From assembly GCA_027366585.1 (NCBI GenBank), contig DAHXNF010000014.1:1-64000 (forward strand): a DNA stretch of 64,000 bases, written 5' to 3'. Position numbers and translations under genes: made by a program. How positions within the stretch are numbered: position 1 is the stretch's first letter; every line of letters begins with the position of its first letter. Positions 47,644 through 62,974 of this stretch are shown piece by piece. A model generated the notes under the pieces. That model ran no database searches and was not told where the DNA came from. It saw only the letters and a program-made list of their open reading frames with translations. The stretch is from Thermoplasmatales archaeon (lineage in GTDB: Archaea > Thermoplasmatota > Thermoplasmata > Thermoplasmatales > Thermoplasmataceae).

Positions 47644-47651
47644 TTATATAC
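47644..47651 (+). promoter_or_regulatory. TATA box of the thermopsin-PNGase A gene
   Basis: TTATATAC lies about 22 nt before the ATG at 47670, with no Shine-Dalgarno; a leaderless transcript is likely. Confidence 0.5.
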
Positions 47652-47669: not shown

Positions 47670-50600
47670 ATGATTGACATGCTTTCCGGTAAACTTAAGG
47701 CTGTTATCGTTGTTTTTGTGTCTTTAATCACCGTCTTGTCTATGCTGGGTTTCTTTTATGGCAGTGACTTTTCCGCTGCCCCCGCATCATCGGCGCGAAG
47801 TGCAGTATCCGCTCAGCCCGCTGTGCTCCAAACCCAGCCGGCTGCTTCAACCGGGCATACTACTTTGAAGGGACTGGTCAACAATGCACTAAAAGACAGG
47901 AATATCACAAAAGACATTTTCATCCCCAACGTGAATTTTCTTCCTGGGATGCAGGGTAATCATGTGGAGCCTCTGTACGGTCAGTCTCCGGCCCCAATGG
48001 GTATAGGCGACTTTGGACTTGTGAACCAGGATGGTCAGATTGTTGGAACGGAGATGCAAACATCAAGTTTCGAAGGTACATGGAATGTAAACAATCTCAC
48101 TGCCTTTAACCTGGGCAATGATGGTCCTTACTCAGTGACGGTGCAGTTGAACACAATCCTTGCACACACAACAGTCCTGGGTAAATCAAATTATGTCTAC
48201 TGGACACAGAATGTTATTGTCTATTCCACAAGAACGAATGAATTGACTTTCGAGGATAATATATGGAACTTTTCCAGCCCGACGGCAGTGATGACATCAG
48301 GCACAATATACAACTCCACAGGAAATGTAATACCATACCCGGGTGTACACATAGCTCTCGGCCCCACTGTAACGCTTCAATACCCGTTCACCGTGAATCT
48401 GTTCCTTAACACCACCGTTCTGGACGGCAGGGACACTGTTTACTTCAACTATTCAATTCCAACACTTAAGCTCAGCGGAACTTACGATCGTGTCATGTTC
48501 AACTCAATTCACGGGATGCATTCCCGATATTCAGCACAGCCTGCATATTTTGAGGTCAATGGAAATAAGCTTAACCCGGAAGGCCTCCTCTATGATGCAG
48601 AGCTAATGATAGGAGGGCCGGGAGGAGGCAGCACCAATTCCATATATGCAATGAATTCCACGATGTCCCTGAAATATCTGTCAACACCGCAACAAGCTAT
48701 CTCACCTCAGCCACATTATACTGAAATATTCTCAAATACAGGATCCAACAGTCCGGGGACAGGTGGCCGATACCTGAATGTTCCATCGGCATTTGACTTT
48801 GGAACAGATACCGGCGAGACATCAGAAGGGGTCGCGGTTGCATGGAATTCACAGGATCAGGCAATTCTCACCGCGGGACCCTCTCTCCTCTACGGCATGT
48901 GGAACGTTTCTTCGGCGACAGGCATGGAACATTTCACCGGCCAGGTATCGCCCTCCAATGCCTTCATGTTCGTAGACAGCGGTACAAGCGTCAATCCGGA
49001 TAACGCAGGGTGGTCTCCGCTTTCTGCTTCCGGAACATACAACTTCTGGCTGCCTGCAGGAACGTATACTGCTGAATACCTGCTGAGCTATTACAGCACC
49101 GTTACTTCCAGATTGACTGGTAGTTCAATGATGACAACGCTTTCTAAAAATACGGCTGCCGGCATATATACTCCTCTTTTCGCCAGCAGCGATGCACAAC
49201 TGGCCAACATCTCCATGTCGGGCAATGGATCAAGGGATAATCCATACATTGCAGAAAACGTTCAGGTTACGAACATAAATCCGCTCTTCAGCCAGGTTAA
49301 CGATTTCCTCTTCCCTGTGTTTGAGGGCGTGATGATCATGAATACCAATGCATATTTCCAGATGAACGAGATGCCAAACTTCACTTTCCAGATGCCTCAA
49401 TACTTGGATGCATTTCTGACGTTTTACAATATTTCAGAAACAAACTATATGGGCTACTGGCTGTATAACACATCTGATATCTCAATATGGAATACATCGC
49501 TCATAACAGGATGGTTCAGCCCGTTCGGGTCTGGATTCCCCTATGCTAATATAATCATGTGGAACTCATCCAGCGATCTCGTTGGCTCCAGCGTGTTCCA
49601 GACCATGGATAGTTCAATGCTGATATTCGGCGGAACCAATAACACGGTATGGGGAAACACGTTCATGAATGTGTCCCCGCTACTGCTGAACCAGTCTGGC
49701 GTTGCCAATGTCACACTGTATGGAATACAGCTTGCTCTCTCGATCTACAGCTCTGGCAACCTGATATACAACAACAACTTCACGACCTCATTACCGGCGT
49801 ACAGCCCGGATTACAGCATATACACCGGAAATCCGGCTTATTACGAGAATTCCTGGAATGTATCCTTAAGACCGGCAGCATCGGTTTCCATGGTCAATGG
49901 ATACAATCTAAGCGGATCAATAGTGAATTCCACTTACCAGGGAGGAAACTACTGGTATAATTTCAATGGCATAATACCTTACAATGATACGGGGTGCATA
50001 GCAATTGGAGGAGACTATGAACCACTGAATATACTCATGGTACCATACGGACCACTTATACAGACACCGATGGATGCCATTGTGGTTGTTCCCGTTTATG
50101 CGGCGTATGTATCTCACAGCACCACCTCGACTATCACTAATAATAGTGTGTACTTCCCATACGGTTCATATAGCAGCATCGGTGTTACATTCTTTGATCA
50201 GTTCATATCGAATCCGTTTGATGACAGTTTCATTGTCCAGGCTGGAAATACACAGATTCTTGCGGGTAACACCCTCGAGGATGAGAATACCTCTGTCACC
50301 CAGCCTGTCACGCAGTATTACAGCATACTCCAGGGTGAAACATCTGTTACTGCGCTAAGCCCGCAGTTCAGTCCAGGATACGCATCCAGGCTCAGTACAT
50401 GGTTTACGTTTTACCTCGGTCCGGAAGCAGCGCATCCTCAGACTGTGATACCTGCGTTTACGGACATCTCGTTCCCGACTCCAGCGAATGCATTTCCAAA
50501 CAACGTTCCAATCCCTTTCAACGTGACAAGGACTGCAAACGTAACTTTCCCGGCTCACATTACAAGTGCATATGTTAACTTCTACGAACAACAAAATGGC

Positions 50601-51698
50601 AATGACGAGTTCTGGTACGCCTCAGAGCCGCCATTCAGGGAATTCAAGATCTTTATAGGCAATCAGCTCGTTGCAACAGTTGAACCTTATCCAAACATAC
50701 AGACTGGAGGCGGAAACCTGTTCCAGTGGCAGCCGATCCTCGCTATAGGAGCCGAGGTATATCCACCGCATGAGATCAACCTGTCGCCATACCTGTCACT
50801 CCTCAGGGGAACACAGGAAGTAAAGGTGGAGGTCATCAACGATGAGAATCTCTGGATTAGATCTGCCCTGAACTTCATGATTAACACCAGTTCTCAGCAG
50901 GTCTCATCTCATCTGATCTCCAACAATTTCCAGTTCTCCTATACCAACATCCAGTCGCCGGAAACGAATCTGACAACAGAGTCTATTCCCAGCAATGCGA
51001 CGTACCTTAATGACACCAACTACGCATCCAGCGTGCTCACTGCAACAGGAATTTCTGCTGAGGCGAATTACCTTGCGAATTATTATAGCAGGTCAACGGA
51101 TATATTCTTCGGCAATTCCACCGAGTTTGATCCAAACGAGAATGTAGTAAATGTTACGTCTACAGGCTTCGTTATACCTATAGTGGAAAGCTTCTTTGTC
51201 AATGAAACTATAACTTCCTTCAGCTCATCTACTAACTACTATTACAACGGAAGAGGTACTATTTCAGGCGAAATGAATGTAACAAACTTTGAAACAGAAT
51301 ACATCCAGATAAATGGTACCAGCTCTGAATATCTCTACCTGAACGATACTGGTGTCTTAAAAGCCATTGGTGTAGGATTCAACGTTACCCAGATAAGGGA
51401 CACAACTGATTACACAACAGTAAGCTATGAATTCAACGGTATTCCAGGCGGATACAACACAGTCAGTTACAATAACACAACAGTAACAGGAAATGGATTT
51501 TTCGTCGGGACACTCGTACATGACGTACTTACATCTTTGACCTACAATCATGCGATGACTTCGAAGAGCGTACAAAGCCTCACCGAACTTAATGGAAAAG
51601 TGATTGGTTTCTACGATCTTTATGAAGTGGCAGTAAACAATTCATTGGTAACGAGAAATGGAAACCTTGTAACATATGATGTGAGTTCCGGAACCTGA
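47670..51698 (+). CDS. Secreted thermopsin (A5) protease fused to a PNGase A-like glycoamidase
   Basis: A 1342-aa exported protein. A signal/anchor helix is at about residues 9-30. Residues about 100-480 are thermopsin-like: SPAPMGIGDFGLVN near 106, MQTSSFEGTWNVN and TQNVIVYSTRTNELTFEDNIWNFS, the acid aspartic peptidase family A5. Residues about 515-800 form a sequon-rich beta-helix of NosD kind (GNGSRDNPYIAENV ... GNLIYNNNFT ... GGNYWYNF), common in thermopsin proteins. Residues about 815-1340 match peptide N-glycanase A (PF12222-type): FPTPANAFPNNVP, DEFWYASEPPFREFKIF, LVATVEPYPNIQTGGG, LFQWQPILAIGAEVYP, INLSPYLSLLRG and VEVINDENLWIRSALNFMI. This would combine peptide-bond and N-glycan cleavage outside the cell. 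There is no C-terminal anchor, so it is released or held by the N-terminal helix. Confidence 0.78.
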   Translation: MIDMLSGKLKAVIVVFVSLITVLSMLGFFYGSDFSAAPASSARSAVSAQPAVLQTQPAASTGHTTLKGLVNNALKDRNITKDIFIPNVNFLPGMQGNHVEPLYGQSPAPMGIGDFGLVNQDGQIVGTEMQTSSFEGTWNVNNLTAFNLGNDGPYSVTVQLNTILAHTTVLGKSNYVYWTQNVIVYSTRTNELTFEDNIWNFSSPTAVMTSGTIYNSTGNVIPYPGVHIALGPTVTLQYPFTVNLFLNTTVLDGRDTVYFNYSIPTLKLSGTYDRVMFNSIHGMHSRYSAQPAYFEVNGNKLNPEGLLYDAELMIGGPGGGSTNSIYAMNSTMSLKYLSTPQQAISPQPHYTEIFSNTGSNSPGTGGRYLNVPSAFDFGTDTGETSEGVAVAWNSQDQAILTAGPSLLYGMWNVSSATGMEHFTGQVSPSNAFMFVDSGTSVNPDNAGWSPLSASGTYNFWLPAGTYTAEYLLSYYSTVTSRLTGSSMMTTLSKNTAAGIYTPLFASSDAQLANISMSGNGSRDNPYIAENVQVTNINPLFSQVNDFLFPVFEGVMIMNTNAYFQMNEMPNFTFQMPQYLDAFLTFYNISETNYMGYWLYNTSDISIWNTSLITGWFSPFGSGFPYANIIMWNSSSDLVGSSVFQTMDSSMLIFGGTNNTVWGNTFMNVSPLLLNQSGVANVTLYGIQLALSIYSSGNLIYNNNFTTSLPAYSPDYSIYTGNPAYYENSWNVSLRPAASVSMVNGYNLSGSIVNSTYQGGNYWYNFNGIIPYNDTGCIAIGGDYEPLNILMVPYGPLIQTPMDAIVVVPVYAAYVSHSTTSTITNNSVYFPYGSYSSIGVTFFDQFISNPFDDSFIVQAGNTQILAGNTLEDENTSVTQPVTQYYSILQGETSVTALSPQFSPGYASRLSTWFTFYLGPEAAHPQTVIPAFTDISFPTPANAFPNNVPIPFNVTRTANVTFPAHITSAYVNFYEQQNGNDEFWYASEPPFREFKIFIGNQLVATVEPYPNIQTGGGNLFQWQPILAIGAEVYPPHEINLSPYLSLLRGTQEVKVEVINDENLWIRSALNFMINTSSQQVSSHLISNNFQFSYTNIQSPETNLTTESIPSNATYLNDTNYASSVLTATGISAEANYLANYYSRSTDIFFGNSTEFDPNENVVNVTSTGFVIPIVESFFVNETITSFSSSTNYYYNGRGTISGEMNVTNFETEYIQINGTSSEYLYLNDTGVLKAIGVGFNVTQIRDTTDYTTVSYEFNGIPGGYNTVSYNNTTVTGNGFFVGTLVHDVLTSLTYNHAMTSKSVQSLTELNGKVIGFYDLYEVAVNNSLVTRNGNLVTYDVSSGT

Positions 51699-52016: not shown

Positions 52017-52520
52017 ATGAAGACTATGCCTCCGAAATATGTTAGAACGGTATCAGATGTGATAAACTTCTACTATGCATGGCTGGTTATTGCCAGAGCC
52101 GCTGGCAAAATGGACCAGTGGGGATTCATTACCTACCAATACAAGCGACTTAAGAACGAGGAAATTCGATGGGCAGATTTTGATGGTGAAATCCGTCTTC
52201 AGATGAGGGCAAGTAATGAATGTGTTTATTGCGGAGATCAAGCGACCGCTTTCGATCATGTGGTTCCTAGGAAATTGGGTGCCCCGGAAGGCATACACAA
52301 TGAGGTTAAAGTGTGCAAGCACTGCAATTCTTCAAAGGGTGACAAGGACCTGGTAGACTGGTGGATTAACGATCTTAAAAGAGAAGTGAAGGATCTGCCG
52401 CGCATCCCAATCGGGATTTATTTGAAGCTGAGCCATGGGTGGCACAAAATAAACCACTCTCTGGACAGGATTGCAAATGAGCTTACCGACTTAAAGCCTT
52501 TCCAACCCGTTAGGTTATAA
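52017..52520 (+). CDS. HNH endonuclease family protein
   Basis: A 167-aa protein. Residues about 62-117 form an HNH nuclease: CVYCGDQATAFDHVVPRKLGAPEGIHNEVKVCKHCNSSKGDKDLVDW. It has both zinc-binding Cys pairs (CVYC, CKHC), the catalytic His in DHVVP, and Asn in CNSSKG. The N-terminal 60 residues are helical with no identified domain. It stands alone, next to an AAA ATPase remnant and an accessory region, so a restriction/defence or IS-related origin is possible but not shown. Confidence 0.82.
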   Translation: MKTMPPKYVRTVSDVINFYYAWLVIARAAGKMDQWGFITYQYKRLKNEEIRWADFDGEIRLQMRASNECVYCGDQATAFDHVVPRKLGAPEGIHNEVKVCKHCNSSKGDKDLVDWWINDLKREVKDLPRIPIGIYLKLSHGWHKINHSLDRIANELTDLKPFQPVRL

Positions 52521-58117: not shown

Positions 58118-61100
58118 GTGGCAATTTCAAAGGCGAATTGGAAAGGGATTTTTGCTTTTGCGGTTGTATTGTTATTTGTTTTGATGGTGTTTTCTCCTAT
58201 TACAGCGCAAAAAAATATTAAAGTGCCAATTGGGACTTCCAGTTCAAGTGGTAAGTCGCCTGTTGCATCCCAGTATCCAAGCCAGGATCCGATAAATTCA
58301 ATTCAATCACAGTTAAATGTTGCCGACAATGGAAGTGCATTTTCCAGTTTAGGAGAAAATTTAAGCTCATTCGAAACTCCGTCAATATACCAGAATAAAG
58401 AAGTAACTATAGCTACGCAGAACCTGCAGATAACTACGATAGGTTACACAAATGGTAAGTATGTTCTTGCAGGAGAAAATACGTCCCAGACCCCTCTTTT
58501 TATTCTCTACAATTCCTCAACATCAACTTTCGATTACCCCTCGCAGGAAGTCCCTTCAAGTTTAAGGACGATTAACACAATGATTGCCATGGGTCAGAAT
58601 TTGTATCTTTTAGGTACCCCCACTGGAAATACGCTTCCATTTGCAGAGTATAATATTTCCAATGGTACATTTAGAGATCTTTCAAATTCGTTTTCATCCT
58701 CTCCTTCAGGCGCGAATATTTATCAGGCAACGTTGATTGGAACGACAATTTACATGGGAGGTTATTATCAGCAGGCTGGCCAGAATGCCCTGTTATTATC
58801 CTATAATACATCGACAGGTACCATGCTCAACCTCACACACGATTTACCGGCAGGAACAACGATGATCAATGCCGTTGTCTCTTACAAAAATTCGCTGCTT
58901 TTAGCGGGTTCCGGCCAATCATCAGTTTTTGCCCTGATTTATAACGTATCAACCGGTTCTGAAACAAATATCCCTCTGCCTGCTGATGTTTACGGGATAA
59001 CCACTGGGACTGTTCTCGGTGGTGATTTTTATCTGGGCGGTGGCTCAGTACCTGGAGGAGCTCTTTTCGAGATATCACCCTCTGGAGCAGTAACTAACCT
59101 GACCAGATTCTACAGCAATTCGGCTCAAATTACAAGTTTGGGTCCTTTATGGGGGAATTTATTTGTAGGCGGATGGAGTATTGATTCGCCACTTGTCTCC
59201 GAACTAAATATTTCCACCAGCTCAGTGCTTAACTTTTCCCTGTCTGGAGCGTGGAATGCAAGAGGCGGGGAGACATTCGGTTTATCGTCCAGCGGGAATG
59301 AAGCCATCGTGGCCGGAGGGATGTCAACTCAATATGGAAATTATTCAGGAGCTCTGCTGGGAAAATTGTACACAAACGGAACGTTTGTAGATATGAGTGC
59401 TTCATTATTTAAAAACCCGTCCTCTGTTTCATATAGTTTCCCCAACCAGCAGGAATTTTACGTTTATACAAATGAGACTGTTACTAGTCCAGGTTCCGCT
59501 ATAACATTTTATGGTCAATTCCTGCTGCCAGATTCGCAATACACAATATCCTATGCAAACATAACGGATCCAGTTACTACGAATTCCGCGGGAAGATTTT
59601 CGTTTGAAACAAACCTTTCTGCTGCAATAAGTTCAGGGGATTATCTCATAACACTAAGCAATAGCTCTACTAATTTCTATAATTATTTCGCCGTTCCGTA
59701 TACCTATTCTGAAATGATGTATGGTGCTCACTACCCAAATGCATCTAAATATGTACCATATTCCAATTTAAAATGTGGAGCAGTGGTACGCGACGGGAAT
59801 TATATTGAATTCTACCGCGTTGCAAACGGCACTTTCCCAATAACGTCAATTAATTACCTTGTACAGTGGAATCAGATTCTATTCCAGAATCTTACGGCAA
59901 AAGGTTGGACCGTTGCACCTGTTAACCAATTAAACTACGCTTCAGAATTCAGCATTAATCCTCTCACGTTCCAATACAGCAGCTGGAACGATTTTGGAAT
60001 TTCCAAAGTGTCGCAAGAGGGTGTTTTTGAAAATTATCCGACAGATAATTCTTCCATATTTGTCAATGGCAGTACAATGATAGTCTGGATTCCATATTCT
60101 TTCATAAATGAAAAGTCATTCCCATGGATGTTTGCAACGGATTATGTTCAAAATAGTCCGGTATACAATCCTGCTTTCAGGATAGAGGCTGGACAGAATT
60201 TCGTATCATATTTCTACGCAAATGAAACGCCCTCCATTTTTAGCGGAAGCGGATATACCATTACCTTCAATGAAACTGGCCTTCCCCAGGGTATGCCATG
60301 GATTGTTCGAATTATAAACAACTCAGCTAATGCATCTTCTTATTATGGAAATTACTCCTCAAGCGGATCTTCTCTGTCATTGAAGCTTCCTAAGGGAGAT
60401 TACAAATACGTTGCCCTTACCGACTCATCATATTCGGAATATGCGGATAGATATACAACACCACAGGCAACAGGAAAGCTGTCAGTCTCCGGCAATCTAA
60501 ATGTGAATCTGTCCTTTGAAATCAGCCCAACTTCAATCTGCAGCAGAGGTCTATCACCAATTCTCGCGGGTAATACAAGCGAATTTAGTGTGCCCGCAAC
60601 AAACGGACCAACTGCAATCAGTTTCGATGTGATGAACAGTACCATAAATGTAAGAATTGTTGAAGGTACGGATACGATATTGAATAAAACAATAATAGGG
60701 CAGCCTACCCAACTGGATGTCATGGAAAGAACAGGCAGCTACGGTTATGTTAATTATGATGCAAATGGAAGCGCGGTGGAGGTGTATGCAACCAACAGTG
60801 GACCAAATTCAGGGCTGTTTGCCTATAATCTGTGGAACTACTATATCTCGAATTATACCGCCTCACTTGAGACCGTTCCGCCGCAGTTCTCAGAAAATCT
60901 GAACCCGACTGGCACTTTTTCTCCCCTGTATAATAATACTGGAATTTCTTTCACCTTCATAGCACCCTATTATTCTGATCCGGTAGCGCTTGCCTTCTGG
61001 ATTGGGGAAGGATACTTCAATCCAGTCACGGGAAAAGAGTGGTGGGCACAGGTAGGTTTTAACAACTGGCTTGGCGGCATGAACGATGTTTCGTACGCAG

Positions 61101-62974
61101 GCTGGGGAGTTTTCTCGAACATCTTCGGAAGTCCTGGTGGAACCGATGGGGCATTTCCACTGATAGCAAATGAAACATATACTGTCAGCATGCAACTCAT
61201 ATCAAATGACACATGGGGATTCTTCGCAAATGGGAGGCCTATACTGGAGCCTGGATTACCAGGTTACATAAACACCACCTCATCGTACGCAAATGAGGGA
61301 GTGACAATGGGCTTTGAAGTGCTTTCTGAAGCAAGAGCAGGTTCAGAAAATGCCACCTCCCTGCTGCCGATAAAAGTAACAGCTCTTACTGCAATGAGAG
61401 TAAGAGTTAATGGGCAGTGGGAAACCGTACCAAATTTTGCATTCAACAATGTAGGGGAAAATTGGGGAGGAAATTTTCCGGGAGAACCCGGGGCGATGGG
61501 ACTAAACCTGTGGAGCATTCAGGGAAATTTCCAGAATAAGAGTATCCCGCCCGGAGAAATTGTATTTGGAGGCAGCGATTCCCCTCTCTTCAATATTCCT
61601 GCATCTCAGTACAATTATCCTATCTATGGAAATTTCACTTACCCGTATGAAAATTTGGCGCCTAATGGCACATACGTAGAATATGACAGAATGCCGAATA
61701 ATTCTTTACTTATAACTCCACTCCGTGGACCTGTACTCCTCTCCCTGCTGCAGTTCAAGGACAACACGGATTCACTCCTTAATTTCACAAATTATATTAT
61801 TACTAAATCTGTTGCAATAGAAAATCCATATAACGGCACAAGCGAGGCAATATCAGCAGCGCCCCTGAATGGGAGTGCCCCCGGCTATAATGATAATTTC
61901 CAGGAAGTGGTTATTTCAGACTACAACCCATCGGCATGCTATATTGTTACATTTTCAGAGCATAATTTACCGGAAGGGACATCTTGGTCGGTCACGCTTA
62001 ATGGCACAAAGGAATCAACAGTAACAGGCACAATCTCATTCACTGAAGGGAATGGTTCATACAATTACATCGTAACCGCGGTAAGTGGTTTCACAATCCT
62101 GAGTAATGAGACTGGCATTGTTTCTGTGGACGGCAGCAATATAACAGTAAATGTACCATTTGCCGGAGGATATTCTGTGACATTTACGGAATCTGGCCTT
62201 CCGGCAGGATTGACATGGTATATAAACCTGAGCAACGGAATGAAATCAGGAGCTATAACTGGATCTTCCTACGTTTTCACACTTGTCAATGGAACATACA
62301 CATATACAGTTACAACATCCGACAAGACCTACGTACCATTTTATTCAGGATCAATAGCTGTAGATGGAAGTATGATATCAGAATCAGTCTTATTCCTGGA
62401 ATTGAGATACTAAGTTACGTTCTCCGAAACCGGTTTACCAGGCGGAAGTTCGTGGTCTGTCACTATAAACGGTATCACCAATACCAGTACCTCTTCTGTA
62501 ATAACGTTCATGGAACCAAACGGTTCCTATGCATATACAATCGCAACTTCGAATCATGAGTATGGGGCATACTTCTCTTCTGTGACGGTGAATGGTTCCG
62601 CAATTTCCACCACTGTAATATTCCGGCAGCTGATCTCTACCGTTACATTCACTGAATCTGGTCTCCCATCAGGATCTACATGGTACCTCAACCTTTCAGA
62701 CGGAAAGACACTGTCTTCAAACAGCACAACAATAACCGTTTCTCTTGTGAATGGCACATACAGCTACACTGCAACTTCGAATGGATTCCAAAACAAGACG
62801 GGTTCTGTAACACTGAATGACAGCAACCAGTCTATCACGATAACATTTACCAGGGCCTCGCCCAAAACTTTTCCTGCGAATTTAAGCAGTAATCTCATCT
62901 ACATTGCAGTCGGAGTTGTAGCTGCAGTTGTAATCATTGGTGCTGCAGGGTATGCCATAACCAGGAAGAAATGA
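58118..62974 (+). pseudogene. Giant surface glycoprotein interrupted by one in-frame stop (58118-62413 / 62414-62974)
   Basis: The frame is 1431 codons, TAA at 62411-62413, then 187 codons in the same frame. A signal helix is at residues 10-30. Residues about 60-430 look like a beta-propeller with repeated 'xxNLYLLG / LLLSYNTSTG' strands. A large sequon-rich middle follows, with a jelly-roll-like part near 900-1100. Modules starting 'TFxExxLPxGxxWxVxLNG' occur near 60253, 61945, 62179, 62414 and 62644. The stop sits exactly where the module expects Ser (Y-S-VTFSETGLP), so TCA to TAA would explain it. The second part carries the C-terminal anchor (LIYIAVGVVAAVVIIGAAGYA, then RKK). With the stop the protein would be secreted, not anchored. 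Unknown function. Confidence 0.75.

Follow-up and report, generated by a model that had tools for sequence, protein, structure and literature searches.

Can one secreted protein of an acidophilic archaeon both remove the N-glycans of a glycoprotein and cut its polypeptide backbone? A dense shield of N-glycans makes archaeal glycoproteins difficult to digest, and the question is raised by a single gene (47670-51698, + strand) in a 64,000-nt stretch of DNA (positions 1 to 64,000 of contig DAHXNF010000014.1, assembly GCA_027366585.1; hereafter the window) from a Thermoplasmatales archaeon of an uncultured genus in the family of Thermoplasma, whose genome (G000) is a 1.7-Mb draft of 62 contigs, 85% complete. 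The reading frame comprises 1342 codons without an internal stop. A first-pass annotation, made from the letters of the DNA, had proposed that it encodes a thermopsin (peptidase A5) domain, a beta-helix and a peptide N-glycanase A (PNGase A) domain, and Pfam matches, structure prediction and relatives together gave a thermopsin domain, a beta-helix-like region and a PNGase A-type domain in that order. Both domain families are known; the domain architecture is new, and it is present in several genomes. In the open-licence literature no paper naming both 'thermopsin' and 'PNGase' was found (subscription papers and InterPro lay outside the search). If one acid- and heat-adapted protein did strip off entire N-glycans and also cleave the polypeptide, its architecture would be new among enzymes. 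It could be of use where samples are difficult for glycoproteomics, and the ways in which archaea recycle or attack one another's glycosylated envelopes would become open to test.

The C-terminal part was assigned by several routes. The Pfam family PNGaseA (PF12222) matched residues 859-1055 with an E value of 2.5e-12 and 46.6 bits, above the cut-off of 25.3, and alignment with stand-alone archaeal PNGase A proteins of ~600 amino acids placed the start of the module near residue 800 and its end at the C-terminus, in good agreement with the boundaries first proposed; one of these proteins (L045) aligned with residues 789-1334 (53%). The AlphaFold model of residues 800-1342, built with 36 homologues, reached a mean pLDDT of 90.3 and a pTM of 0.88. 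Its best Foldseek match in the PDB was the glycopeptide complex of PNGase Bb (E 1.1e-31, TM 0.68/0.69), followed by PNGase F, PNGF-II, a plant/insect-glycan PNGase and zebrafish Ngly2, and the top 18 PDB fold matches were all PNGases or PNGase-like hydrolases. Furthermore, when the 36 archaeal PNGase A domains were combined into a profile, its sole match in the PDB was PNGase Bb (E 5.3e-60). The module thus has its PF12222 family and fold in common with almond PNGase A, PNGase H+ of Terriglobus and PNGase Bb (PDB 9vla), but differs from the known members in being archaeal and fused to a protease, in its low identity (14% as aligned by Foldseek) and in the replacement of binding-site arginines considered below.

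Asp60/Glu206 in PNGase F (146 residues apart) and Asp421/Glu555 in zebrafish Ngly2 (134 apart) are catalytic pairs whose alanine mutants are inactive (PMC12753239). In the window protein, Asp851 aligns with the Asp of the YDR motif in PNGase Bb and Glu980 lies within a DEFWY motif, the distance between the two being 129 residues, exactly as between the residues of the putative dyad of PNGase Bb. Asp851, Glu870 and Glu980 were invariant in all 36 archaeal homologues, and in all 36 the residue before Asp851 was aromatic (F/Y/W), like Trp59-Asp60 of PNGase F. Asp851 and Glu980 are therefore the putative equivalents of the PNGase F/Ngly2 pair, an assignment made by motif and spacing rather than by coordinate superposition.

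As for the N-terminal half, the Thermopsin family (PF05317) matched residues 99-350 with an E value of 3.6e-59 and 200.8 bits against a cut-off of 25, so that the two family matches foreseen by the annotation, one for each end of the protein, were both obtained. In the model of residues 55-821 (pLDDT 85) the thermopsin domain mostly exceeded 85. Eight residues (Q159, N161, Q180, N197, W199, D309, T381 and E383) were invariant in 39 of 39 relatives, and D273 and E311 were kept in 38. Rawlings (2013) listed Asp144, Asp228, Asp257, Asp302 and Glu305 as candidate catalytic residues of thermopsin (PMC3842238), and their counterparts by motif (D196, D273, D309, D380 and E383) are all present in the window protein. 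The thermopsin of Sulfolobus acidocaldarius (MEROPS A5) is, like the window protein, a secreted-type protein of acidophilic archaea with a PF05317 domain, and four of its five Asp candidates are matched by Asp here; the Asp of its QDV motif corresponds to Asn181, as in 43 of Rawlings' sequences, and it has neither the beta-helix nor the PNGase module. SsMTP and SsMTP-1 of S. solfataricus are multi-domain thermopsins, which are extracellular and carry a long C-terminal extension after the thermopsin domain (PMC3958906); however, those extensions consist of repeats or PKD-like domains plus anchors, not of a second enzyme. The beta-helix-like region was called from the model's run of short strands, since Pfam gave no beta-helix match in the window protein; NosD/Beta_helix matches occurred in close homologues, that in L164 (NosD, 2.1e-6) being above the cut-off.

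A search of the PDB with the thermopsin profile gave no significant sequence match. The 55-821 model had strong fold matches to one protein only, the 'di-glutamate' mucinase HC7 from Bacillus cereus (8 chains, E 7e-7 to 8e-6, probability 1.00; PMC13003899); with a TM of only 0.38 and a root-mean-square deviation of 24 Å for a two-domain query, this is a lead and not a result. Together with the invariant E383 and the nearly invariant E311, it hints at a possible kinship of A5 peptidases with glycopeptidases of the glutamic type.

The fusion is not confined to the window. PF12222 was present in 51 of 400 genomes of the class and a PNGase A member in 16 of the 117 genomes of the order; most were stand-alone. 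PNGase A-type genes are common in Thermoplasmata, and a PF12222 match was also found in S. acidocaldarius, taken as a control. IMG/VR yielded no viral relatives. A complete fusion protein of 1302 amino acids with both Pfam matches is encoded in another family (G079, L063:4516-8421). In another genus (G311), a protein that starts within the thermopsin C-terminus at the contig end (L061) aligned with window residues 447-1342 without interruption, at 63% identity over 897 columns and across the junction. A third case, from the same genus as the window (G003, L042:7076-9511), shows beta-helix and PNGase A, the contig end cutting it before any thermopsin part. Its missing N-terminus was sought on contig C19, but the truncated thermopsin gene at the end of C19 proved to be an orthologue of the other paralogue (L041 type). 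Likewise, long N-terminal extensions of L059 and L066 were rejected as domains, being low-complexity read-through before the Met of PNGase A frames. Further relatives were encountered. A divergent third PNGase A-like group of ~600-630 amino acids (G311:C7:125014-126501, G289:C75, G005:C80 and G004:C23) was detected by the 36-row profile only (E 1e-69 to 1e-77). L012, L013 and L014 are near-canonical PNGase A proteins (E down to 4e-71) with an F-D-R motif, belonging to Thermoplasmata family f27. Lastly, the stand-alone protein L064:87-1880 (G068), whose nearest PNGase A is the fused L063, closely resembles it in the signal region, as if both had kept one common signal peptide, behind which a thermopsin plus beta-helix part was either inserted or lost.

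Elsewhere, thermopsin plus beta-helix proteins bear differing C-termini. In four Thermoplasmataceae proteins the place of PNGase A is taken by a pro-kumamolisin/S53-like peptidase, with a pro-kumamolisin activation domain (PF09286, E 5.5e-22 to 2e-29) and a subtilase-like GGTSFATP segment, which makes two peptidases per chain. Many others ended, as judged by eye, in repeats, a C-terminal transmembrane helix and a basic tail, and the idea that C-termini of ~500 amino acids in other thermopsins hide further PNGase A modules was dropped, as these were sedolisin-type or repeat domains. In the tree of the thermopsin plus beta-helix part, the window and G003 were sisters (100/97), joined next by G311 (99/93), and the four sedolisin-type carriers formed the sister clade of these three (98/96 for the joint clade). 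In the PNGase A tree, by contrast, the window and G311 were sisters (100/100) and G003 and G079 fell into a distant subfamily. Forcing window, G311 and G003 into one PNGase A clade was rejected (lnL -236, p-AU 2.6e-128), as was a G003 plus G079 clade (p 2.4e-4). A single common fusion event can therefore be discarded: the fused PNGase A domains sit in separate clades, stem from at least two distant subfamilies, and were joined to, or exchanged on, the N-terminal part more than once. Going by these comparisons of sequence, the thermopsin plus beta-helix part is a chassis on which C-terminal modules can be exchanged, which is new in this analysis, and the modules amount to a natural experiment in the assembly of secreted acid enzymes from parts. 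L042 and the window protein themselves present an apparent module swap, being 70% identical in the beta-helix region of the chassis while their PNGase A subfamilies are distant; this swap needs confirming, as G003 has 6% contamination and the junction lies ~800 bp from the contig end, a caveat that does not touch the G079 fusion. One might go further and see a modular, weapon-like system, in which Thermoplasmata secrete carriers with swapped catalytic modules against acidophilic archaea in their neighbourhood, the N-glycosylated envelopes of these being the target. We regard this as unlikely; if true, the carriers would be specialised glycoprotein-stripping proteases equipped from two PNGase A subfamilies and a sedolisin-type peptidase.

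What, then, would the protein do? The reading that we consider fairly probable, in which we infer secretion, both activities, their synergy and the substrate, is that of a secreted acid two-enzyme protein that deglycosylates and cleaves N-glycoproteins for nutrition. The protein would be secreted or held by its N-terminus; the N-terminal segment reached the Kyte-Doolittle maximum of 2.67 (19-residue windows), and since the only other window above 1.6 (residues 1159-1177, 1.61) lies within the PNGase fold, there is no C-terminal anchor. The thermopsin domain would cleave peptide bonds at low pH, the PNGase A-type domain would hydrolyse the glycan-asparagine bond by means of the Asp851/Glu980 pair, and the beta-helix would act as a spacer or presenter of the domains. 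N-glycan removal would lay the polypeptide open to the protease, and proteolysis would supply the PNGase with reachable, unfolded glycopeptides, so that each domain would help the other to digest N-glycoproteins. Surface layers of acidophilic archaea and dead biomass would be the targets; predation is no more than a possibility. Thermopsin has its optimum at pH 2 (PMC3842238), PNGases of the A type are likewise acid enzymes (PMC12753239), and PNGase H+ is most active at pH 2.6 (PMC4231336); both families are thus acid, which fits a joint acid enzyme. The sedolisin-type peptidase at the same place on the chassis also fits a degradative tool, and SsMTP and SsMTP-1 are induced in peptide-rich medium and tied to protein degradation (PMC3958906). 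Genome G017 has, 350 bp downstream of a stand-alone PNGase A gene and on its strand, a gene for a thermopsin plus beta-helix protein. Such an adjacency would suit the reading too, but it was met once in about 35 stand-alone loci, which is weak and possibly due to chance.

Several observations weigh against this two-enzyme reading. The hydrophobic segment at the N-terminus may be an anchor that is not cleaved off. The catalytic mechanism of thermopsin is unsolved (PMC3842238), so that activity of the window domain is not to be judged from its residues, and for archaeal PNGase A-type proteins we found no report of activity. Moreover, two arginines are replaced in the window protein. The first, a chitobiose-site arginine that follows the catalytic Asp of PNGase F and of PNGase Bb, is Asp852 here; the second, from the W-R-P family motif, is Gln1021. 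Neither is required for membership of the PNGase A family: most archaeal members also lack the first and 19 of the 36 lack the second, and Ngly2, without an Arg after its catalytic Asp, is still active (PMC12753239). Given the two replacements, glycan recognition probably differs from that of known PNGases. The N-glycans of archaea are themselves different: for Thermoplasma acidophilum, an N-glycan with 6-C-sulfofucose has been reported (Vinogradov et al. 2012, as cited in PMC7226565). The same replacements would suit a PNGase A-like domain that is a non-hydrolytic glycan-binding module tethering the protease to N-glycoproteins, and carbohydrate-binding modules do often target glycoprotein peptidases (PMC13003899); yet pure binding would not need an Asp/Glu pair and Glu870 invariant across 36 diverse homologues, nor a full-length PNGase fold, and we hold such a module to be quite improbable.

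The G017 arrangement, together with the fragmented state of the source assembly, could also be taken to mean that two adjacent genes were merged in the draft, a possibility by which the annotation itself might have fallen. This was rejected as extremely improbable, since independent assemblies (G079, G311 and G003) have the same domain order, and the gene order in G017 is reversed relative to the fusion, so that loss of a stop codon there would not yield the window protein. There is also the question of whose glycoproteins are attacked. The enzyme might serve its producer, in the turnover of its own N-glycosylated envelope during growth, damage or starvation, or in deglycosylation of secreted proteins including itself, scavenging then being secondary. 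The annotation had assumed that the host surface is N-glycosylated, which is plausible: the host carries an AglB/STT3 oligosaccharyltransferase homologue (PF02516, E 4.7e-17), and cell-surface N-glycans have been reported for T. acidophilum (Vinogradov et al. 2012, cited in PMC7226565). Substrates would be abundant on the producer, as the enzyme has 43 N-X-S/T sequons where shuffles gave 25 and the product of the neighbouring frame 58118-62413 has 52, which makes the producer's own surface a possible substrate. However, a housekeeping enzyme of envelope turnover would not be expected in so few genomes of the order, and no N-glycosylation operon adjoins the gene, its neighbours encoding a DUF2079 membrane protein, an HNH nuclease and an epimerase. 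We give self-directed remodelling a small chance. Patchy occurrence and sedolisin-type sister proteins speak for degradation and nutrition as the role of the two-enzyme protein, rather than for essential self-remodelling.

The features of the locus and the sedolisin-type carriers are collected in Table 1. The TATA-box-like motif TTATATA upstream of the ATG is a possible archaeal promoter, which would give a leaderless transcript; scans for sigma-70 promoters and terminators, with models unsuited to archaea, found no excess over shuffles.

Table 1. Positions of the features of the thermopsin-PNGase A gene (window coordinates) and of the sedolisin-type carriers (locus coordinates)
Feature	Position	Strand	Description	Basis
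Whole gene	47670..51698	+	1342 aa (amino acids): hydrophobic N-terminus, thermopsin, beta-helix-like region, PNGase A	Open reading frame, Pfam, relatives
TATA-box-like TTATATA	47644..47650	+	About 20-26 nt upstream of ATG	Read from sequence
N-terminal hydrophobic segment	47670..47765	+	Residues about 11-32; signal peptide or N-terminal anchor	Kyte-Doolittle
Thermopsin (peptidase A5) domain	47964..48719	+	Residues 99-350; homology and model reach about residue 480	Pfam for residues 99-350
Beta-helix-like region	49107..50039	+	Residues about 480-790	Short strands in model; NosD/Beta_helix matches in homologues
Complete PNGase A-type module	50067..51695	+	Residues 800-1342; Pfam core 859-1055	
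Asp851 codon	50220..50222	+	Putative catalytic Asp (PNGase F Asp60 equivalent)	
Glu980 codon	50607..50609	+	Putative catalytic Glu (PNGase F Glu206 equivalent)	
Sedolisin-type carriers	L156:935-4957, L164:910-4518, L155:2009-6127, L154:1567-5688		Thermoplasmataceae, one Thermoplasma genome included	

Two neighbouring genes may be mentioned in their own right. Directly downstream of the fusion gene lies a small HNH endonuclease gene (52017-52520; PF01844/PF14279). Further on, the sequon-rich frame 58118-62413 encodes a predicted secreted or surface protein of 1431 amino acids without a Pfam match, the C-terminal repeats of which (F.ESGLP.G..W) resemble the C-termini of other thermopsins.

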